Shown here piece after piece: positions 52,145-61,582 of a stretch of 64,000 nucleotides of DNA. The translations under genes and the position numbers were made by a program. Every line of letters begins with the position of its first letter. The stretch's first letter is position 1. Origin of the DNA: Fodinibius saliphilus (lineage in GTDB: Bacteria > Bacteroidota > Rhodothermia > Balneolales > Balneolaceae); assembly GCF_005869845.1 (NCBI RefSeq), contig NZ_VAWF01000001.1:1550001-1614000 (forward strand), in the 5' to 3' direction. The notes beneath the pieces are model-generated. The model saw only the letters and a program-made list of their open reading frames with translations. It was not told where the DNA came from and did not search any database.

Positions 52145-52282
52145 ATAACAAAAAATAGCAGATCTTTATAAGCCATAACTCACTGCCAGACAATATTTTA
52201 TAGCACTTTTACACCCCAATTAAACTTTGGAATAAATTTCTTCTTGCCTTTTTATTCAGAAGCCCGGAGTTTATATGACTCA

Positions 52283-52387
52283 ATGAAAACAAAAGGAACA
52301 CATATCACTTTTTCTAGCGACAGCTCACCTGTTGCAGGCATCTCTACGTTCCGCTTTCGTGTACGGCCACGGCCCGTTCGGGTCTAA
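52283..52387 (+). CDS. Putative arginine leader peptide (34 residues)
   Basis: ATG at 52283, TAA at 52385-52387. The first 23 residues are ordinary (MKTKGTHITF...), but the last eleven read RFRVRPRPVRV, with five Arg encoded by CGC, CGT, CGG, CGG and CGG. It lies 125 bp upstream of the first gene of the complete arginine operon and is followed by alternative hairpins. Amino-acid leader peptides used for attenuation carry repeated codons for the end product in just this position. GAGTTTAT at 52267-52274, before the start, is fully complementary to ATAAACTC at 52388-52395, just after the stop. No other gene or ORF explains this stretch. Not demonstrated to be expressed. Confidence 0.6.
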   Translation: MKTKGTHITFSSDSSPVAGISTFRFRVRPRPVRV

Positions 52388-52392
52388 ATAAA

Positions 52393-52430
52393 CTCTCCTT
52401 ATGGAGGGTACTCAGTACTGTATCCTCCAT
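52393..52430 (+). promoter_or_regulatory. Mutually exclusive hairpins, candidate attenuator
   Basis: CTCTCC (52393-52398) can pair with GGAGGG (52403-52408) across a TTAT loop. Alternatively ATGGAGG (52401-52407) pairs with CCTCCAT (52424-52430). The two cannot coexist. The second is followed 15 bases later by a T5 run (52446-52450), so it is not a textbook terminator; Rho or translational effects are possible. Confidence 0.5.
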
Positions 52431-52465
52431 CCGACAACACAACTCTTTTTCTAACTATCAATTAA

Positions 52466-52494
52466 TTATCAGCGCATAACTTTATCGCTGATAA
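52466..52494. repeat. 9 bp palindrome before the first arg gene
   Basis: TTATCAGCG (52466-52474) and CGCTGATAA (52486-52494) are perfect complements around an 11-base loop, ending 18 bp before the start codon. As RNA it would place a hairpin next to the ribosome-binding region; as DNA it could be an operator. Confidence 0.6.
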
Positions 52495-52512
52495 AATTAA
52501 CATCGCCGTACG

Positions 52513-53181
52513 ATGGATATTTCAATCACTGTAGCTGGTACCCAGCATCTGAGCTATGCCGAAAAAATCTGTGCCTTGATGGAAGAAGCCGCCAAACAAC
52601 GTGGCACCGGAATTGCCAAAAGGGCCCCGGAGTACATCCAGACAAAGATTAATGAAGGCAAAGCTGTTATTGCTATCGACCAGACTAACGGACAATTGGC
52701 CGGCTTTTGCTACATCGAAAACTGGGATCACGACAATTATATTGCTAATTCCGGCCTTATTGTGCACCCTCACTATCGAAAGCTGGGGCTTGGCAGAAAA
52801 ATCAAAAAACAGATTTTCGAACTCTCAAAAGAGAAATATCCTGATGCCAAAATTTTTGGTATCACCACCAGTATGGCTGTAATGAAAATTAATTCTGATA
52901 TGGGCTACAAGCCCGTAACCTTTGCGGAACTAACGCAAGACGAGAAATTCTGGAAAGGCTGTCAGAGCTGCCCCAACTATGATATTCTGACCAGTAAAGA
53001 GCGAAAAGGCTGTCTTTGCACGGGGATGTTATACGATCCTGAAAAAGAGGATACACCATCATCACAGGCTAATGATTCGCAAAAAGCGAAACGCTGGGAA
53101 GCATTCAAACGCTTCCTGCGGCTGCACAGATATAACATCCAGCGCAAAACAAAATCCCTTTTCACTTTTAATACTGACTAA
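52513..53181 (+). CDS. GNAT acetyltransferase, probable N-acetylglutamate synthase of the arg operon
   Basis: 222 residues. GNAT core with the acetyl-CoA loop HPHYRKLGLGRKIKK (about 85-100) and MAVMKINSDMGYKPV. A Cys-rich segment follows (KGCQSCPNYDILTSKERKGC, about 155-175), then a basic tail. The same type of gene stands first in arginine operons of many Bacteroidota, which lack classical argA/argJ. It is therefore the best candidate for acetylating glutamate. It lies 3 bp before argG. The Cys pair set could bind zinc. Confidence 0.8.
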   Translation: MDISITVAGTQHLSYAEKICALMEEAAKQRGTGIAKRAPEYIQTKINEGKAVIAIDQTNGQLAGFCYIENWDHDNYIANSGLIVHPHYRKLGLGRKIKKQIFELSKEKYPDAKIFGITTSMAVMKINSDMGYKPVTFAELTQDEKFWKGCQSCPNYDILTSKERKGCLCTGMLYDPEKEDTPSSQANDSQKAKRWEAFKRFLRLHRYNIQRKTKSLFTFNTD

Positions 53182-53184
53182 CCA

Positions 53185-54381
53185 ATGAGTAACAAGAAAA
53201 AAATTGTCCTCGCCTTTAGCGGCGGACTCGACACCTCGTACTGTGTACCGTATCTCAAACAAACCTACGGTTCCGAAATACATACCGTACTGGTTAACAC
53301 CGGTGGTTTTTCTGATAAAGAACTCACTCAAACCAAAGAACACGCTTATAAACTGGGAGCCGACACCCATAAAACACTACAGCAGACTGAGCAGTTTTAC
53401 CAAGAGGTTATCAAGTATCTTATTTTTGGGAACATCCTGAAAAATGATACCTATCCCCTTTCGGTGAGCTCCGAGCGTGCATTCCAAGCAGTAGCCATTG
53501 CCAACTATGCTCAACAGATTGGCGCTGATGCCATTGCCCATGGCAGTACCGGGGCCGGCAACGACCAGGTACGTTTCGATCTGATCTTTAACGTAATTGC
53601 CCCGGAACTCGAGATTATCACCCCCATACGAGACCAGCAGCTAAGTAGGCAGCAAGAAGTGGAATTCTTACAACAACAGGGCTATGACTTTGAATGGGCA
53701 GAGGCAAAGTATTCGATCAATAAAGGCCTTTGGGGCACCAGTGTTGGCGGGGCCGAAACGCTGACCTCCGACCAGCCCTTGCCCGAAGAGGCTTGGCCGA
53801 GTCAGCTTAACAAAACCGACCAAGAAACATTAACCGTTAAATTTAAAAATGGTGAACCAACGGCACTTAATGATAAGCAACTATCCGCCGTTGAACTGAT
53901 TCAACAGCTCAACGAACTGGCCTCTGACTATGCCGTAGGCCGAGATATTCACGTGGGTGATACCATTATTGGTATTAAAGGGCGAGTGGGTTTTGAAGCA
54001 GCAGCACCGCTAATCCTTATCAACGCACACAAGCAGCTCGAAAAACACGTGCTTACCAAATGGCAAATCTATTGGAAAAAACAGTTGTCCGAATGGTACG
54101 GGATGATGTTGCATGAAGGACAGTATCTGGATCCTGTAATGAGAAATATTGAGCAGTTCCTAGCAGACACCCAAAGTAATGTTTCGGGTATGGTATCAGT
54201 CAACCTTACTCCCTACCAGTTTACCATTGAAGGCATTACCTCAGACAACGACCTGATGGATGCTAAGTTTGGCGATTATGGGGAGATGAATAATGCCTGG
54301 AGCGGCGAAGACGTCAAAGGCTTTGCAAAAATTCTATCTAACCAGATTAACATACACAAATCGGTGAACAGTCATGATTAG
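53185..54381 (+). CDS. argG: Argininosuccinate synthase
   Basis: 398 residues. The ATP pyrophosphatase loop is AFSGGLDTSYCVPYL. Further landmarks are GSTGAGNDQVRFDL, the YSINKGLWGTSVGG stretch, and GFEAAAPLILINAHKQLEKHVL. It joins citrulline and aspartate. Its stop overlaps argC by 8 bp. It stands early in the operon, as in other Bacteroidota, rather than beside argH. Confidence 0.97.
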   Translation: MSNKKKIVLAFSGGLDTSYCVPYLKQTYGSEIHTVLVNTGGFSDKELTQTKEHAYKLGADTHKTLQQTEQFYQEVIKYLIFGNILKNDTYPLSVSSERAFQAVAIANYAQQIGADAIAHGSTGAGNDQVRFDLIFNVIAPELEIITPIRDQQLSRQQEVEFLQQQGYDFEWAEAKYSINKGLWGTSVGGAETLTSDQPLPEEAWPSQLNKTDQETLTVKFKNGEPTALNDKQLSAVELIQQLNELASDYAVGRDIHVGDTIIGIKGRVGFEAAAPLILINAHKQLEKHVLTKWQIYWKKQLSEWYGMMLHEGQYLDPVMRNIEQFLADTQSNVSGMVSVNLTPYQFTIEGITSDNDLMDAKFGDYGEMNNAWSGEDVKGFAKILSNQINIHKSVNSHD

Positions 54382-55351
54382 AGTAGGAATTGTAGGCGGT
54401 TCGGGTTATACGGCTGGTGAGCTTATTCGATTGCTTTTGAACCACCCGGATACAACTATCGAATTTGTCTTTAGTACCAGTAAAGCGGGGGAAGCTATAA
54501 CTGCAGTACATAAGGATCTAATAGGAGAAACTGATCTTACATTCTGTTCCCGAATAACCCCATCGGTTGATGTGCTTTTTTTGTGTACCGGTCATGGTAA
54601 CTCAACCGAGGTTCTTAAGCAGCATACCATATCAGAACAGACTAAAATAATTGACCTGAGCCGGGATTTCAGACTATCGGGGCAAAATAGGTTTGGACAT
54701 CGCAGCTTTATCTATGGACTACCTGAACTAAATAAAGAAGCCATTAAAGAAGGTGAAAATATTGCTAATCCCGGCTGTTTTGCCACGGTTATACAGCTGG
54801 CACTTCTTCCGCTAGCTCACGATTCGGCACTGACCAATGATGTACATATCCACGGGATCACCGGGGCTACCGGTGCGGGTAGCTCACTGAGTGATACCAC
54901 CCATTTTAGCTGGCGAGCCAATAATGTCTCCGTATATAAGGGACTCAACCACCAACATATATCAGAAATACAGCAAAGTCTTAACCAGCTGTATTCCTCT
55001 TTTGGCAACAAACTAAACTTTGTACCGGTGCGAGGTAACTTTAGCAGAGGAATCTTTATCTCGGCTTACACTAACTATGAGGGTAATCTTGCTGAAGCCC
55101 AATCCCTGTTCACTGAGTTCTTTAAAGAGTCTCCATTTGTATATCACAGCCATCAGTCAATTTACCTGAAGCAGGTCGTAAATACCAACAAATGCCTGCT
55201 ACACCTGGAAAAAGAAAATGGACAACTGCTTATCACAGCAGCTATTGACAACCTTTTGAAAGGGGCCTCTGGGCAAGCCCTGCAAAATATGAACCTGATG
55301 TTCGGTCTCGAAGAAGACGCTGGACTTCACCTTAAACCCACACATTTTTGA
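54374..55351 (+). CDS. argC: N-acetyl-gamma-glutamyl-phosphate reductase
   Basis: 325 residues. NADP loop GIVGGSGYTAGELIRLL, catalytic Cys in ANPGCFATV, then HGITGATGAGSSLSD and the FVPVRGNFSRGIF stretch. It reduces N-acyl-glutamyl phosphate to the semialdehyde. It overlaps argG by 8 bp and is followed by argD after 1 bp. Confidence 0.96.
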   Translation: MIRVGIVGGSGYTAGELIRLLLNHPDTTIEFVFSTSKAGEAITAVHKDLIGETDLTFCSRITPSVDVLFLCTGHGNSTEVLKQHTISEQTKIIDLSRDFRLSGQNRFGHRSFIYGLPELNKEAIKEGENIANPGCFATVIQLALLPLAHDSALTNDVHIHGITGATGAGSSLSDTTHFSWRANNVSVYKGLNHQHISEIQQSLNQLYSSFGNKLNFVPVRGNFSRGIFISAYTNYEGNLAEAQSLFTEFFKESPFVYHSHQSIYLKQVVNTNKCLLHLEKENGQLLITAAIDNLLKGASGQALQNMNLMFGLEEDAGLHLKPTHF

Positions 55352-55352
55352 G

Positions 55353-56495
55353 ATGAATATTTTTGATGTTTACCCCTTACTCGATCTTGAACCAATCAAA
55401 GCAGATGGCAATTATATCTTCTGCAGTGACGGAAAAAAGTACCTGGATTTCTATGGTGGTCATGCTGTGATCTCTATCGGTCACAGCCACCCACACTATG
55501 TTTCGAAGATCAGCAAGCAGCTAAAAACCATCGGGTTTTACTCCAACTCGGTGCAAAATCCGCTTCAGGCTGAATTAGCACAAAACCTGGGTAGACTCTC
55601 CGGCTATGAAGATTACCAGCTGTTTCTCTGCAACTCGGGTGCCGAAGCTATTGAAAACGCGCTCAAGATGGCCTCATTTCATACTGGAAAATCAAAAGTC
55701 ATTGCTTTTAACAAGGCTTTCCACGGGCGTACCACCACGGCGCTTAGCGTCACAGACAATGATAAATATACCGCTCCGATTAATGAGAATAATAATACAA
55801 TCTTCCTGAAATTGAATGACCTGGAATCACTTAAACAGGAGGTTTCCAAAGGTGATATCTGCGCAGTACTATTTGAAGGCATTCAGGGCATTGGCGGTAT
55901 TCGCCTGTTTGAGGATTCCTTCCTTCAGGAAGTTCAATCGCTCTGCAATACACACAATGTAGTTTTGATATGTGATGAGATTCAGTCCGGATTCGGAAGA
56001 ACAGGCACATTCTTTGCGCACCAGCACGTCGGTATCACACCTGATATTATTACCGTAGCCAAAGGTATGGGCAACGGTTTCCCGATAGCGGGAACCATGT
56101 TAAGCCCTGATTTTGAGAGCATTCACGGCCGCCTGGGATCTACCTTTGGAGGCAATCACTTGGCCTGTGCAGCAGCCAGCGCAGTACTGGATGTTATTGA
56201 AGGAGAACAGCTCATCGAAAACGCAGCGGTCCAAGGCTATGGTCTCATCGAGAAGCTTAATACCCTGCCGGGAGTTACGGAGGTGCGCGGCCGGGGATTG
56301 ATGATTGGACTTGAATTCCCATTCCCCATAAAAGAGCTGCGGCAGCAGCTAATAGAAAAAGAGCAGGTCGTCACCGGCGTAGCCTCAAACCCGAATGTGC
56401 TCCGGCTGTTGCCACCACTGGCCATAACCCAAACCGAAGTTGACCACTTTTTTACTGCATTACAAAACGTTTTAACACAGCACGCATACCAATGA
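55353..56495 (+). CDS. argD: Acetylornithine (N-acyl-ornithine) aminotransferase
   Basis: 380 residues, class III aminotransferase. CNSGAEAIENALKMA, the Asp in LICDEIQSGFGRTG, the PLP Lys in VAKGMGNGFPIAG and STFGGNHLACAAA are all intact. It transaminates N-acyl-glutamate semialdehyde to N-acyl-ornithine. The start follows argC by 1 bp and the end overlaps argF' by 4 bp (ATGA). Confidence 0.95.
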   Translation: MNIFDVYPLLDLEPIKADGNYIFCSDGKKYLDFYGGHAVISIGHSHPHYVSKISKQLKTIGFYSNSVQNPLQAELAQNLGRLSGYEDYQLFLCNSGAEAIENALKMASFHTGKSKVIAFNKAFHGRTTTALSVTDNDKYTAPINENNNTIFLKLNDLESLKQEVSKGDICAVLFEGIQGIGGIRLFEDSFLQEVQSLCNTHNVVLICDEIQSGFGRTGTFFAHQHVGITPDIITVAKGMGNGFPIAGTMLSPDFESIHGRLGSTFGGNHLACAAASAVLDVIEGEQLIENAAVQGYGLIEKLNTLPGVTEVRGRGLMIGLEFPFPIKELRQQLIEKEQVVTGVASNPNVLRLLPPLAITQTEVDHFFTALQNVLTQHAYQ

Positions 56496-57427
56496 CAAAT
56501 TTTACATCCATACACGACACACAATATCCAACGGCACTTGTACAGCAGGTACTTGAACTAAAAAGCAACGGGCATCATTCCTCTCTTGGAAAGGGGAAAA
56601 CTCTGGGACTGATTTTCTTCAATCCCAGCCTGCGAACCCGTTTGAGTACCCAAAAAGCGGCAGCTAACCTGGGCATGAATGTGATCGTCATGAATATCAC
56701 CGGCAATGCCTGGAATATCGAATTTAAGGATGGCTCCGTGATGAATGGTTCCACCCAGGAACACATCAAAGATGCCGTACAGGTTATTAGCGGATATTGT
56801 GATGTGATGGGGGTCAGAACCTTTGCCAAGCTCGAGGATCCGCAAGAAGACTACCAGGAAAAGGTTTTAAACAACTTTATAAAGCATTCGTCGGTCCCGG
56901 TTGTCAGCCTCGAATCAGCCACCCTGCACCCACTGCAATCGTTGACTGACCTTGCCACCATCGCTGAAACCGGTAAGAAGGTACCCAAAATAGTGTTAAG
57001 CTGGGCACCCCATCCCAAAAAGTTACCACAGGCCGTGACTAACTCTTTTTTGCAATGGATAAGTACAACCGAGGCAGAAACAACGGTCGCACATCCTAAA
57101 GGATATGAGCTCAGCGAGGAGTTTACGAAAGGAGTTAAAATCTGCCATGACCAAGAAACAGCGTTGACAGATGCCGACTTCGTCTATACCAAAAACTGGT
57201 CCAGCTATGCCAACTACGGGCAGACGCCCCCGGTCAAGAAAGACTGGACGATTACCGAACAGAAGATGAAGCTGACCAATAACGGCAAATTTATGCACTG
57301 CCTACCGATCCGAAGAAATGTGGTAGCTACTGATACAGTGATTGACAACTCATTAGTCTATAAACAAGCTAAAAATCGTGAATATGCCGCCCAAGCCGTA
57401 CTTCAAAACATTTTGGAGGAACTGTAA
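56492..57427 (+). CDS. N-acyl-ornithine carbamoyltransferase (ArgF')
   Basis: 311 residues. Carbamoyl-phosphate loop FFNPSLRTRLSTQ; then NITGNAWNIE, VMNGSTQEH, SWAPHPKKLPQAV and FMHCLPIRRN. These place it in the acetyl/succinyl-ornithine carbamoyltransferase group, not the ordinary OTCase group, so carbamoylation happens before deacylation. The residue that decides acyl specificity (Pro90 in the Bacteroides fragilis succinyl enzyme, Glu92 in the Xanthomonas acetyl enzyme) aligns with Gln89 here. Acetyl or succinyl is therefore open. It overlaps argD by 4 bp and argB by 1 bp. Confidence 0.93.
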   Translation: MTNFTSIHDTQYPTALVQQVLELKSNGHHSSLGKGKTLGLIFFNPSLRTRLSTQKAAANLGMNVIVMNITGNAWNIEFKDGSVMNGSTQEHIKDAVQVISGYCDVMGVRTFAKLEDPQEDYQEKVLNNFIKHSSVPVVSLESATLHPLQSLTDLATIAETGKKVPKIVLSWAPHPKKLPQAVTNSFLQWISTTEAETTVAHPKGYELSEEFTKGVKICHDQETALTDADFVYTKNWSSYANYGQTPPVKKDWTITEQKMKLTNNGKFMHCLPIRRNVVATDTVIDNSLVYKQAKNREYAAQAVLQNILEEL

Positions 57428-58203
57428 TGCAGAAACTACAGATTATTAAAATTGGCGGGAAGATCGCCAATGACGACAAAAAAATGGACACTTTCCTGAA
57501 TCATTTCACCCAACTTGACCATCCCAAAATACTGGTTCACGGGGGCGGGAGTTCGGCCTCACAGCTTTGTAAAAAACTGGACATCCCCATTCAAATGAAT
57601 GACGGCCGTCGTATTACGGACGGCCCCACCTTGGATGTGGCTGTAATGGTATATGCAGGCCTGATCAACAAAACGATTGTGGCCAAACTGCAAGGGCACT
57701 CCTGTAATGCACTGGGGCTTTCAGGGGCAGACCTGAATATCATTCCTGCCACCAAAAGAAGCGATACCACCATAGACTATGGCTTTGTTGGGGATATCCA
57801 AGCCAATGAAATCAATACCTACTTTATAAAACGACTGTTAAATGAACAGATCATCCCGGTCTTCCCGGCTATTACTCATGACGGGCAGGGGCAACTACTC
57901 AATACCAATGCCGATACCATTGCTTCTGCGCTCGCTGTTGCACTTGGCAAAAGCTATGAAGTGACGCTGACTTACTGCTTTGAAAAAGTGGGGGTTTTGC
58001 ATAATGAGAAGGATGAGAATTCACTGATCGAACATATCACAATGGATTGTTTCTCGGAGTTGAAAGAAAACGGCACCATCCATGACGGGATGATCCCCAA
58101 GCTGGATACCGCTTTTGAGGCGCTCAAACAGGATATCGACAGAGTATATATTAAACATGCCCAAAATCTAACAACCCAAATAGGAACGGAGCTGTCCTTA
58201 TGA
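57427..58203 (+). CDS. argB: N-acetylglutamate kinase
   Basis: 258 residues, amino-acid kinase fold. IIKIGGKIANDD at the N-terminus, VHGGGSSASQL, MNDGRRITDGPTLDVA and the later GQLLNTNADTIASALA. It lacks the N-terminal helix that arginine-sensitive kinases carry, so allosteric inhibition by arginine is not expected, which makes control by the leader region more relevant (inference). The start ATG overlaps the argF' stop, and the end overlaps argE by 4 bp. Confidence 0.95.
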   Translation: MQKLQIIKIGGKIANDDKKMDTFLNHFTQLDHPKILVHGGGSSASQLCKKLDIPIQMNDGRRITDGPTLDVAVMVYAGLINKTIVAKLQGHSCNALGLSGADLNIIPATKRSDTTIDYGFVGDIQANEINTYFIKRLLNEQIIPVFPAITHDGQGQLLNTNADTIASALAVALGKSYEVTLTYCFEKVGVLHNEKDENSLIEHITMDCFSELKENGTIHDGMIPKLDTAFEALKQDIDRVYIKHAQNLTTQIGTELSL

Positions 58204-59258
58204 ACCAATTGGCAACCAAATCCATCGACTTATTAAAACAGCTGATTGCGACACCATCGATTTCGAAACATGAGGAGGCTACAGCTAATATTATCTACCA
58301 ACATTTAAGGGCAAACGATGTCAACTTTAAGCGTCATTTAAATAATATTTGGGCTGTCAATGAAGCATTTGATCCTGCCCGTCCTACTCTATTACTAAAT
58401 TCACATCACGATACCGTGAAGCCGAACTCCAGCTATAGCCGTGACCCTTTTCAGCCCACCATTGAAGGTGGCAGACTTTACGGCCTCGGCTCCAACGATG
58501 CCGGTGGGGCGCTGGTCTCTCTCATTGCAACTTTTATCCACTTTCATAAGCAAAGAGATCTGAACTACAACCTGGTGTTGGCCGCTACCGCGGAAGAAGA
58601 AATATCGGGCAATAACGGTATTAGTGCTCTCTGGGAACATTTGCCGGAAATCGACAGTGCTATTGTTGGCGAACCTACGCAGATGCGCATGGCCGTAGCT
58701 GAAAAAGGTCTGATGGTGTTGGATTGTACTGCCAATGGCAAAAGTGGTCATGCCGCCCGCGGCGAAGGTAAAAACGCTATCTATACCGCTATGAATGACA
58801 TCGCTTGGATTAGAAACCACCAGTTTGAAAAAGTTTCCAACTTTCTCGGTCCTATAAAGATGACCACAACAATCATTAATAGTGGCAGCAAGCATAATGT
58901 GGTTCCAAACAGTTGCTCATTTACCGTAGACGTGCGTACTACTGATGCCTACAGCAACAAGGAAACGCTATCAATTATAAAAAAAAGTTTGGACTCGGAA
59001 GTTCGGCCAAGATCCACGAAACTCAATCCCTCATACATCACGCCGGACCATCCGCTGGTGCATGCCGGGCAAAAATTGGACATTAACAGCTATGGTTCTC
59101 CTACTCTTTCTGATCAGGCCCTAATGCCCGTACCATCGCTAAAAATAGGTCCGGGAAAATCGGCACGATCACATACGGCAGACGAGTTTATCTACCTGGA
59201 TGAGATTGAGAAGGGGATAGATGGATATGTTAATCTGTTAAACCATATTATTCGATAA
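58200..59258 (+). CDS. argE: M20 deacylase, N-acyl-citrulline/ornithine deacetylase
   Basis: 352 residues, M20 zinc peptidase. Metal ligands are visible in LNSHHDTV, SNDAGGAL, AAEEEISG, VGEPT and the final SHTADEF. In operons with ArgF' this enzyme removes the acyl group from N-acyl-citrulline to give citrulline for ArgG. It overlaps argB by 4 bp; 80 bp separate it from argH. Confidence 0.92.
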   Translation: MNQLATKSIDLLKQLIATPSISKHEEATANIIYQHLRANDVNFKRHLNNIWAVNEAFDPARPTLLLNSHHDTVKPNSSYSRDPFQPTIEGGRLYGLGSNDAGGALVSLIATFIHFHKQRDLNYNLVLAATAEEEISGNNGISALWEHLPEIDSAIVGEPTQMRMAVAEKGLMVLDCTANGKSGHAARGEGKNAIYTAMNDIAWIRNHQFEKVSNFLGPIKMTTTIINSGSKHNVVPNSCSFTVDVRTTDAYSNKETLSIIKKSLDSEVRPRSTKLNPSYITPDHPLVHAGQKLDINSYGSPTLSDQALMPVPSLKIGPGKSARSHTADEFIYLDEIEKGIDGYVNLLNHIIR

Positions 59259-59338
59259 AAGTGAATGGCTATTGGGACATGAAACCCAAATAACAAGTAA
59301 CTATTAACCAATGACTAATAATTAACCAAAACCAAACT

Positions 59339-60622
59339 ATGAAGCTCTGGAATAGCGGACAACAATCGACAAGTGATATTATTGACCAGTTCACGGTGGG
59401 TGATGACCGGATTTTCGATTTGCAAATAGCGAAATATGACCTTCAGGCCTCTAAGGCACATGCTAAAATGCTAAAAAACATTGATTTACTTTCGGATGAA
59501 GAGTTGGAAGCACTTATTAATAAACTTGACCATCTCTTAGAACAAGTTAACGACGACCATTTTACTATAGAAGCAGAATTCGAAGATGTCCACTCAAAAA
59601 TTGAATATGAACTTACCCAGACAGTCGGTGATACTGGTAAAAAAATTCACGCCGGGCGTTCCCGTAACGACCAAGTACTGGTATGTCTGCATATGTATGT
59701 CAAGGATCAAATTCAAGAGATCAAAGATCTTATAAATTCGCTTTTTTATCAGCTTATAAAACTTAGTGAAGAGCACAAAGAGGTATTGATTCCCGGCTAT
59801 ACACATATGCAGGTAGCTATGCCCTCTTCTTTTGGACTCTGGTTTGGTGCCTATGCAGAATCGCTGACAGATGACCTACAGCTGTTGAATGCTGCCTACC
59901 AAATAGCGGATCAAAATCCATTGGGGTCGGCAGCCGGTTATGGGAATTCCCTTCCCCTGGATCGTCATATGACTACCGAACTACTTGGGTTTAGTACTTT
60001 GAAGTATAACTCCGTAGCAGCCCAGATGAGTCGCGGAAGACTGGAAAAACAAACGGCCATGGGACTCAGTGCAGTAGCAGGAACACTTTCCAAGATGGCG
60101 ATGGATGTATGCCTGTACTGTAGCCAAAACTATAATTTTCTCTCATTTCCTGATGAGCTAACAACTGGCTCCAGCATTATGCCCCATAAAAAGAACCCTG
60201 ATGTATTTGAGCTGATCCGTGCTAAGTGTAATGATATTCAATCGTTGCCCAACCAGCTGACCTTGGTTACCAATAACCTGCCCAGCGGTTATCACAGAGA
60301 TTACCAACTTTTAAAGGGCAAGCTTTTTCCCGCAGTGGAAACATTGAAATCATGTCTGGAAATGAGTCGCTTTATGTTCGAGCATGTTCAGGTTAATACT
60401 AATGCGATTAATGATGAAAAATATAAATACATATTTAGTGTAGAGTCTGTCAATAAAAATGTACAGTCGGGTCTCCCTTTTAGAGAAGCTTATCAAGAAA
60501 TTGCACAACGTATTTCTCAAAATACTTTTACCCCCGAAAAAGAGGTTAAGCATACCCATGAAGGCAGTATTGGTAACCTTTGCAATGAACAAATCAAAAC
60601 GAAATTTGAACGAATATTTTAA
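59339..60622 (+). CDS. argH: Argininosuccinate lyase
   Basis: 427 residues, slightly shorter than usual (about 450-460). Fumarase/aspartase superfamily: KIHAGRSRNDQVL, GYTHMQVAMPSSFGLWFGAYAE and the signature GSSIMPHKKNPDVFELIRAK with the catalytic Ser. It releases arginine and fumarate. It is the last true arg gene before a palindromic repeat and proC. Confidence 0.96.
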   Translation: MKLWNSGQQSTSDIIDQFTVGDDRIFDLQIAKYDLQASKAHAKMLKNIDLLSDEELEALINKLDHLLEQVNDDHFTIEAEFEDVHSKIEYELTQTVGDTGKKIHAGRSRNDQVLVCLHMYVKDQIQEIKDLINSLFYQLIKLSEEHKEVLIPGYTHMQVAMPSSFGLWFGAYAESLTDDLQLLNAAYQIADQNPLGSAAGYGNSLPLDRHMTTELLGFSTLKYNSVAAQMSRGRLEKQTAMGLSAVAGTLSKMAMDVCLYCSQNYNFLSFPDELTTGSSIMPHKKNPDVFELIRAKCNDIQSLPNQLTLVTNNLPSGYHRDYQLLKGKLFPAVETLKSCLEMSRFMFEHVQVNTNAINDEKYKYIFSVESVNKNVQSGLPFREAYQEIAQRISQNTFTPEKEVKHTHEGSIGNLCNEQIKTKFERIF

Positions 60623-60631
60623 TTATTAGAA

Positions 60632-60760
60632 GGCTTTGCAAAACCTAGATTGTCATCCTGAATTCAGTTCAGGATCTTGGGTTACCCCCCCACCCAACAA
60701 CTGCATGTGAGATTCTGAAACAAGCTCAGAATGACAAAATGTAGATAGTTTTGTAAAGCC
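60632..60760. repeat. 129 bp palindromic intergenic element (MITE/REP-like)
   Basis: Nested inverted repeats: outer GGCTTTGCAAAACCTA (60632-60647) with TAGTTTTGTAAAGCC (60746-60760), and inner TGTCATCCTGAATTCAGTTCAGGATCT (from 60651) with AGATTCTGAAACAAGCTCAGAATGACA (60710-60736), around a C-rich centre. The TCATCCTGA...CAGAATGAC pair is the type of imperfect palindrome seen in dispersed intergenic repeats of many bacteria. It lies between argH and proC. Confidence 0.8.
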
Positions 60761-60781
60761 ATCTATTAAAAATCGAATACT

Positions 60782-61582
60782 ATGAAAACCGAAGTCGCCA
60801 TTTTAGGTGGAGGAAATCTTGGATCATCGTTAGCACAGGGCTTTAAACAATCTCCCGAAGCCATTGACAAATATCATATCACCGTCACCCGAAGAAATAT
60901 AAAATTGATTAAGCACCTGAAAGGTAAAAACGTTGATGTTTCTACCGATAATATTGCTGCTGTAGAAGGAGCTGACATCATCATATTTGCTGTTCAGCCT
61001 GCCCAGATTAACAACCTGATCCAAGAGATAAAGCCGGCGCTGGACTCTAAGAAACATATCCTGTCTTCTACTATGGCAGGCGTCAGCAGTGCCGATATTG
61101 CCGAACTGACCAGTCCAAAATTTGCGATACTACGCATTATGCCCAACACCGCGGCGGCCGTAAACCAAGCGATGACGTGCATCGAAGAAATTGAAAACAA
61201 AGAAGCCGAAACTGAAGTTATTAAGCTCTTCAAAACTATTGGGCGCACCTTAGTTGTACAATCGGAACTCATGGAGGCAACGACCGTACTGGGGGCTTGT
61301 GGTATCGCTTTCTTTTTACGATTCATACGTGCAGCATCTCAAGGTGGAATTGAGGTTGGGTTTCATGCCGAGGAAGCACAGTTCATTGCAGCTCAAACGG
61401 CTTTGGGAGCGTCTGCTTTACTTTTGGATTCCAATAACCACCCCGAGCATGAAATTGACAAGGTCACCACACCGAAGGGCTGTACCATTGCAGGACTTAA
61501 TGAGATGGAACACAACGGGCTCAGCTCTGCTTTAATTAAGGGCATTAAAACTTCTTTTGAAAAGATTGACGAAATTGGGTGA
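60782..61582 (+). CDS. proC: Pyrroline-5-carboxylate reductase
   Basis: 266 residues. NAD(P) loop AILGGGNLGSSLAQGF, the AVQPAQINNLIQEI region, LRIMPNTAAAVNQAMTC, and the C-terminal KVTTPKGCTIAGLNEME, which matches the ProC signature. It makes proline from pyrroline-5-carboxylate, linking proline synthesis to the arginine operon as in other Bacteroidota. The repeat between argH and proC may influence how much of the transcript reaches it. Confidence 0.95.
   Translation: MKTEVAILGGGNLGSSLAQGFKQSPEAIDKYHITVTRRNIKLIKHLKGKNVDVSTDNIAAVEGADIIIFAVQPAQINNLIQEIKPALDSKKHILSSTMAGVSSADIAELTSPKFAILRIMPNTAAAVNQAMTCIEEIENKEAETEVIKLFKTIGRTLVVQSELMEATTVLGACGIAFFLRFIRAASQGGIEVGFHAEEAQFIAAQTALGASALLLDSNNHPEHEIDKVTTPKGCTIAGLNEMEHNGLSSALIKGIKTSFEKIDEIG

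Follow-up and report, generated by a model that had tools for sequence, protein, structure and literature searches.

The arginine operon of Fodinibius saliphilus is preceded by a short ORF whose last codons are rich in Arg, and we consider it probable that this leader belongs to a ribosome-mediated arginine attenuator which works without an intrinsic terminator, perhaps through Rho. The existence of a leader peptide with Arg codons is nearly certain and its role as the arginine sensor is very likely; by analogy, it is likely that arginine starvation releases the operon. In the window, that is, the whole stretch of 64,000 nucleotides analysed here, the leader ORF occupies positions 52283-52387 of the plus strand, between a divergent upstream gene and a gene encoding a GNAT acetyltransferase (52513-53181, plus strand; Pfam Acetyltransf_1). 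Its 34 codons encode MKTKGTHITFSSDSSPVAGISTFRFRVRPRPVRV, followed by a stop codon, and translation agrees with the initial annotation in placing five Arg among the last eleven. At least five Arg among the final 12 codons are found in 4 of the 682 ATG-initiated ORFs of 12-70 codons in the window, the leader ORF included.

The operon behind the ORF makes arginine, as had been proposed. Gene models from GNAT through proC give the order GNAT-argG-argC-argD-acetylornithine carbamoyltransferase-argB-argE-like-argH-proC, the genes from argG to proC lying at 53185-61582 on the plus strand, with argD and the argE-like gene scoring below the model cut-offs. The GNAT protein, the first product of the operon, has generic GNAT matches only in Pfam, and its closest named match is from Fodinibius salsisoli, identical in DNA to G008, a genome of the window genus. 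Past its acetyltransferase fold it has four cysteines (C150, C153, C167 and C169) that are invariant in an alignment of 38 sequences and are possibly a metal site. In three genomes of family f28 (G149, G270 and G301; loci L263, L265 and L267) the GNAT match lies within an open frame of 588-630 residues, perhaps a fusion to argG.

The leader has been kept with the operon well beyond the genus. A first search of 58 genomes, including that of the organism itself, found GNAT in 23 of them, with an Arg-rich short ORF ahead of it in 21; the two in which no such ORF was found, G025 and G031, are small genomes (1.8 and 1.5 Mb). Three forms of the peptide are found in Balneolaceae, each running to the stop codon: MKANGTHITFSSD...RRRPRALPGS in the window genus, MQxxLAHRI...PRRR in most remaining members, and a third, MLISKVYRP...RRRR. 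Named genomes yielded at least 592 matching stretches, of which the best 80 came from Chitinophagaceae, Sphingobacterium, Cytophagales, Flavobacteriales, Pontibacter, one Ignavibacteriota bin and others. A strict rule (ATG start, at least three Arg in the last 12 codons, no more than 350 nt from GNAT) was satisfied at 61 of these best 80 loci, and 15 of the remaining 19 have a weaker form when read by eye, the difference being the start codon, a smaller number of Arg or truncation of the record, so that 76 of the 80 have a leader. Neither the rule nor the eye found one at L090, L117, L133 and L143.

A second set consisted of 139 GNAT loci, 42 of the 43 from the window's family (G108, with a broken GNAT gene, was excluded) and 97 from a phylum sample of 296 genomes, each at least 90% complete. 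G356 offers just 160 nt upstream, and 15 of the named loci are identical in DNA to loci of this set. Under an automatic rule, ORFs with at least three Arg in the last 12 codons were found at 80 of the 139 loci and with at least four at 64. The corresponding backgrounds were 9-20 and 0-7 in ten dinucleotide shuffles and 17 and 5 on the reverse strand, and leucine, the runner-up amino acid, reached 35 and 9. Curation by eye, which was unblinded, dropped nine of the 80 loci as chance (G242, G350, G339, G311, G149, G249, G243, G308 and G268) and added 14, many of them with a non-ATG start or just two Arg. This left an Arg leader at 85 of the 139 loci and a conserved two-Arg version at 13 more, every one in genus g70 of family f27, which we guess to be Flavobacterium; at 41 loci no leader was seen by eye. 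Later counts use 84 of the 85 curated loci, G015 being omitted because of unread bases, and in 8 of these 84 leaders the final 12 codons include just one or two Arg.

By family, leaders were found at 40 of the 42 loci of f1 (Balneolaceae) and at all loci of f19 (7), f22 (9), f35 (7), f30 (5) and f45 (2); the share was 12 of 28 in f27 (plus the 13 two-Arg loci), 1 of 4 in f28, 1 of 9 in f29 and 1 of 2 in f36. No leader was found at the 24 loci that f9, f10, f13, f14, f15, f17, f25, f33, f46 and f49 have together. Because their leaders resemble those of named loci, f19, f22 and f27 look like Sphingobacteriaceae, Chitinophagaceae and Flavobacteriaceae, respectively. Four loci with GNAT and no leader (L206, L215, L266 and L268) have AGATAAAATATCT-like repeats, noticed by eye, in their promoter regions, perhaps the operator of another regulator.

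What is conserved is the amino acid Arg and not the base sequence. In the last 12 codons Arg is mostly written CGG in f1, CGC and CGT in f27, CGA in f19 and f22, and AGG in f35 and f45, and in 68 of the 84 leaders no more than one codon separates the final Arg from the stop. Beyond the Arg run, the peptides of different families have little in common by eye. Fifteen f1 ORFs of equal length show 629, 606 and 899 pairwise differences at codon positions 1, 2 and 3, which suggests a mild coding signal in an RNA with structure of its own; their single-base codon differences comprise 296 synonymous and 264 nonsynonymous ones. Comparison supports the leader ORF and its Arg codons: their loss in relatives, which would have spoken against the initial annotation, is not what the family shows, and the leader before the arginine operon is kept across many families with changing codons.

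ArgR/AhrC is a protein repressor of arg operons. It has the same target genes as the leader described here but is a protein, and its domain (PF01316) was found in none of the 58 genomes of the first search, own and relatives, and in none of the 48 among them that are at least 90% complete; the same search was positive in 9 of 14 control genomes. The earlier idea of arginine sensing by the leader is strengthened by the comparison, in which a conserved Arg leader occurs in genomes where ArgR was not found. In the phylum sample ArgR was found in 110 and GNAT in 124 of the 296 genomes, and the two occurred together only in G155, G175, G324 and G331; the first two cases, with five identical copies and a score of 26.9 bits, respectively, are probably spurious. 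This anti-association is largely one deep split and thus carries little statistical weight. In G324 and G331, both of family f46, the gap between the end of argR and the GNAT match is 39 and 82 nt, respectively, and there is no shared Arg leader before GNAT or before argR; G324 has MYFIRRYCIFLRQQSE, with three Arg, before argR, which is absent from G331, where the ORFs have at most two Arg in the last 12 codons, and we read it as no leader.

The region before argR served as a control in 28 of 32 genomes (left out were one with no argG match, one with no locus and two with argR elsewhere, in one case on another contig and in the other outside the locus). In 25 of these 28 genomes argR lies no more than 700 nt from argG. 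Arg-rich ORFs precede argR in 7 of the 28 with at least three Arg and in 4 with at least four, a less than clean contrast with the 80 and 64 of 139 GNAT loci, and four of the seven share a phrase that by eye resembles another frame of the preceding gene. The pattern suggests that the operon is headed by either argR or a leader, although independent switches between the two are few.

The position of the promoter, too, finds support in the comparison of loci. In F. psychrophilum the sigma-A box TAnnTTTG is placed at -12 to -5 of the transcript start (PMC9723704). At 26 f1 loci outside the window genus, some of them closely related, near-identical ones being excluded, T-A-n-n-T-T-T occupies positions -12 to -6 relative to the leader ATG (T 85% and A 62%, followed by T 96%, T 88% and T 50%), and TTG stands at -36 to -34. 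The exact TAnnTTTG is found near the leader ATG at just 2 of 36 Balneolaceae loci (shuffle mean 0.5); in other families it lies no more than 22 bases from the start codon at 14 of 45 loci (shuffle mean 0.5, maximum 3), in 13 of the 14 at 4-8 bases before it. Given this spacing, the 5' end of the leader mRNA is expected at its AUG or a few bases upstream, although leaderless mRNAs make up only 5.5% in F. psychrophilum (PMC9723704). By analogy with the 26 sister-genus loci, the leader promoter of the window is predicted at 52244-52276 on the plus strand, where the match is weak, with TTG at 52244 (-33 type) and a degenerate -7 box at about 52269-52276; the transcript would start at about 52278-52283. 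Some his leaders are similar, as in G000, where the TATATTTG box ends 5 bases before the ATG.

The leader RNA is also predicted to be strongly folded. That of the window reaches -50.7 kcal/mol (z -4.6), beating 200 of 200 shuffles. Segments of 80 nt around the leader stop have a mean z of -1.37 over 142 loci, the controls being 143 random segments of the window (-0.27) and 26 segments taken upstream of other ORFs (-0.28); the mean is -2.96 in the window genus, where 8 of 9 segments lie below -2, and -0.38 in the 12 segments of f27, which fold little. The elements predicted on the plus strand of the window are a hairpin inside the ORF (GCGACAG/CTGTTGC, 52317-52335; RNAalifold on 10 loci), a stop-proximal hairpin over the last Arg codons (GGCCC(GTTC)GGGTC, 52371-52384; from the fold, with similar ones by eye elsewhere), the post-stop hairpin P2 (52401-52430; 11 bp, segment z -3.6), which has no U-tract directly after it, and a hairpin S3 upstream of the GNAT start (TTATCAGCG/CGCTGATAA, 52466-52494), recognized by eye in loci of the window genus and family.

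Covariation in the stems, which had been suggested as a check on the initial annotation, was found in the sister genera and was not significant in the window genus. In 21 other Balneolaceae (27 distinct sequences less five with the MLISKVYRP form and one near-duplicate) a long-range stem pairs leader codons 6-9 with a segment before GNAT, and P2 follows the stop. RNAalifold recovers both helices, in which 87.3% of cells are paired (26-42% after sliding) and both sides have changed at 10 of the 15 pairs; two of the five stem measures are less striking, since the observed value is reached by 21 of 500 shuffles for pairs changed and by 194 of 500 for pair types. For P2 of the window genus, 76.7% of cells are paired in a MAFFT alignment in which about half of the 3' arms look misaligned by eye, against 75.6% in shuffles.

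Comparison argues for a folded leader RNA, the anatomy of which varies between lineages. In a number of Cytophagales and Flavobacteriales P2 carries a UAYGY loop, found in 18 of 143 segments and in 0-2 after shuffling, and among loops closed by at least five pairs in these segments TACGT and TACGC occur most often. The 18 hairpins and three more found by eye (20 distinct) have 95% of cells paired and all 7 pairs changed on both sides, a pairing score biased upward because members were picked as hairpins; more telling is that stems of such variety carry one loop. By eye, other lineages have the stop codon inside a stem (f22), a uAGGUGAGUCC loop (f27) or a CAGCUCG loop (Sphingobacterium). The UAYGY loop recurs in hairpins behind the his leader in two f19 genomes (L343 and L334). 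Rfam, the source of models for T-boxes, riboswitches and listed leaders, gave no match at gathering score in the window and none over the leaders of 16 arg and 2 his loci, where the single match, to whalefall-1, lies outside the leader (L018:234-289, 40.5 bits).

The initial annotation had the ribosome decide between alternative pairings, and the motifs that it named are present: GAGTTTAT at 52267-52274, ATAAACTC at 52388-52395, CTCTCC at 52393-52398, GGAGGG at 52403-52408, CCTCCAT at 52424-52430 and a T run at 52446-52450, 15 bases 3' of the stem. The switches built on these motifs found no support. The 8-bp pairing GAGTTTAT:ATAAACTC is not a conserved element, being present at 2 of 10 close loci, the window and G004, whose GNAT is 90% identical to that of the window; moreover, GAGTTTAT is probably outside the transcript, because it overlaps the -7 promoter box predicted by spacing. 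The 2:3 hairpin CTCTCC/GGAGGG (52393-52408, plus strand), taken as the alternative to ATGGAGG/CCTCCAT, was in equilibrium folding never the minimum-energy fold in 10 species and never beat the downstream hairpin, with the ribosome modelled at the first Arg codon of the cluster, at the last Arg codon or at the stop. All three of these states give P2 in the 10 species, the one departure being G003, where P2 is trimmed by a ribosome at the stop, and consequently the position of the ribosome on the ORF would not by itself select the fold at equilibrium. Equilibrium folding, as modelled, does not explain a switch in the window genus. Since the last Arg codon usually adjoins the stop, we favour ribosome occupancy rather than position as what governs the fold, a step that we infer. 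In the window genus RNAalifold also pairs the leader-end CCCUUCC with GGAGGG as an alternative.

In the attenuator that we propose, the transcript would begin no more than a few bases away from the leader AUG, and a ribosome would therefore load once the 5' end emerges. When charged Arg-tRNA, presumably the signal, is plentiful, the ribosome would pass the Arg codons beside the stop and depart; the stop-codon hairpin, P2 and, in the sister genera, the long-range stem would then fold, and the operon would be turned down. When arginine is scarce, the ribosome would stay parked on the last Arg codons and hold the fold open, and the operon would be expressed, which is the direction of control that we infer. 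The turn-down step would most likely be Rho-dependent termination, as in leader control of the mgtL and speF type, in the C-rich, G-poor untranslated stretch before GNAT (52431-52512, plus strand), which by its composition is a possible Rho entry region. The last 75 nt before GNAT contain 18 C and 7 G in the window and on average 20.5 C and 7.1 G at 39 f1 loci, against 11.3 C and 9.5 G in 27 upstream segments of the window, among them that of the arg operon; in other families the C excess is modest (15.1 C vs 10.1 G in 45 arg leaders). Rho itself is present, with matches to its RNA-binding domain at G000:C1:1521142-1521360 (110 bits) and G000:C2:154389-154601 (44 bits), possibly two paralogues.

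Stalled ribosomes might instead alter the fold so as to affect GNAT initiation or mRNA decay, as for speF orf34, a form of translational or mRNA-stability control that we regard as possible but rather unlikely. Salmonella speF orf34 provides a precedent with Arg codons (PMC6386406). In the window a CATCG-CCGTA-CGATG hairpin (52501-52515) encloses the GNAT start codon, a CATYG/CGATG likeness being seen in five species of the window genus, and in Sphingobacterium the Arg codons can, by eye, pair with bases just before GNAT. However, no start-site pairing common to several families was seen, and the leader stop lies at a median of 113 nt before the GNAT match.

It is still less probable that the leader is a classical attenuator of the trp/his type, in which a 2:3 antiterminator competes with a 3:4 intrinsic terminator and P2 terminates despite the distance of the U run. 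In the window, segment 2 would be masked by a stop-bound ribosome and free when the ribosome stalls at Arg, a T run does occur 15 bases past the stem, and true terminators are found on his leaders of related genomes. However, under a strict rule (a stem of at least 8 pairs and a U-tract) a strong terminator was found at none of 143 arg leaders (84 curated loci and 59 named ones, among which L161 and G290 have the same DNA), though the window has six elsewhere, all on the minus strand, against 0-1 per strand in three shuffles. The comparison thus points to the absence of a strong terminator from the arg leaders, while 8 of 23 his leaders pass the same rule, all from genomes that also carry an arg leader, and none of the 7 his leaders of Balneolaceae does. 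A looser rule yields weak candidates at 26 of the 84 arg leaders (shuffles 5-11) and at 8 of the 23 his leaders (shuffles 0-3); the stricter rule was adopted because many of the loose arg matches are short stems, several of them at the stop hairpin. Moreover, the 2:3 pairing is not favoured in folding and fits poorly by eye in about half of the 10 loci.

Fungal AAP and SpeFL are arrest peptides that sense free arginine or a product. A nascent chain of the arrest class, to which TnaC also belongs, would agree with the Arg run directly before the stop and with the conserved N-terminal phrase in Balneolaceae; we think it very unlikely here, as peptides of different families show so little likeness by eye outside the Arg run and the codons of the Balneolaceae phrase overlap the long-range RNA stem on its 5' strand. 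That the ORF arose by chance or encodes an ordinary small protein with no regulatory role is hardly credible and, in our view, already refuted by conservation. Short ORFs are common, and 29 of the 682 in the window end in 12 codons with at least three Arg, but many families keep the position of the leader, its amino acid and its promoter.

In the his operon, a His-rich leader, MLKRQLHIHSHLHHGGSHRR and a stop codon, lies ahead of hisG (G000:C3, L332), with a short hairpin and no U-tract, and ORFs with at least four His precede hisG in 23 of 25 genomes tested. As arg and some his leaders have no strong terminator, a leader module of this type recurs for two amino acids. We tentatively suggest, as an idea with somewhat less than an even chance of being right, a second kind of leader attenuator in Bacteroidota, with no intrinsic terminator, a start at the AUG and a post-stop hairpin, which would serve arg and some his operons and replace ArgR. 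In such an attenuator the ribosome would park on end-product codons beside the stop, and the post-stop hairpin, with its UAYGY loop invariant in some lineages, would act through Rho or an RNA-binding partner.

The his, trp, ilv, leu and thr operons of Enterobacteria have ribosome-mediated attenuators with end-product codons in the leader. The arginine leader resembles them in its short ORF rich in end-product codons before the matching operon and in the hairpins around the stop; unlike them, it concerns arginine, has no strong U-tract terminator and a predicted start near the AUG, and is found in Bacteroidota. Salmonella speF orf34 is alike in its 34 codons, its Arg codons and the hairpin just past the stop, its authors found no intrinsic terminator, and Rho is involved; however, its target is an ornithine decarboxylase and its sensing Arg pair lies at codons 12-13 (PMC6386406), and it is unrelated to the arg leader in sequence and phylum. 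The small ORF rbfL of S. aureus likewise senses arginine limitation, but it is described as overlapping the ribosome-binding site of a biofilm regulator, the translation of which is repressed by stalling (PMC13009471). The uORFC-8-2 cysS motif was also found comparatively and combines a leader ORF, codons for the sensed amino acid and RNA stems; its account differs in concerning cysteine and Alphaproteobacteria and in an apparent intrinsic terminator (PMC8632094). For F. psychrophilum, strong clues for leader-peptide attenuation before amino-acid operons are reported, arginine being unnamed in the pertinent portion of the paper (PMC9723704); see also Naville and Gautheret 2010 (PMC2965389) and PMC7366714. 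Among the literature matches listed, which did not extend to subscription papers and supplements, none described an Arg leader before a bacterial arginine-synthesis operon.

Attenuation through end-product codons is a textbook mechanism for several amino acids, and here it would apply to arginine in several families of a large phylum. Since the leader occurs in genomes in which no ArgR was found, it becomes possible to compare two solutions of one control problem. The arg leaders have no strong terminator, whereas his leaders often have one, which makes the means of attenuation and the role of Rho testable, and the post-stop UAYGY hairpin, found with arg leaders and with two his leaders, offers a specific lead.
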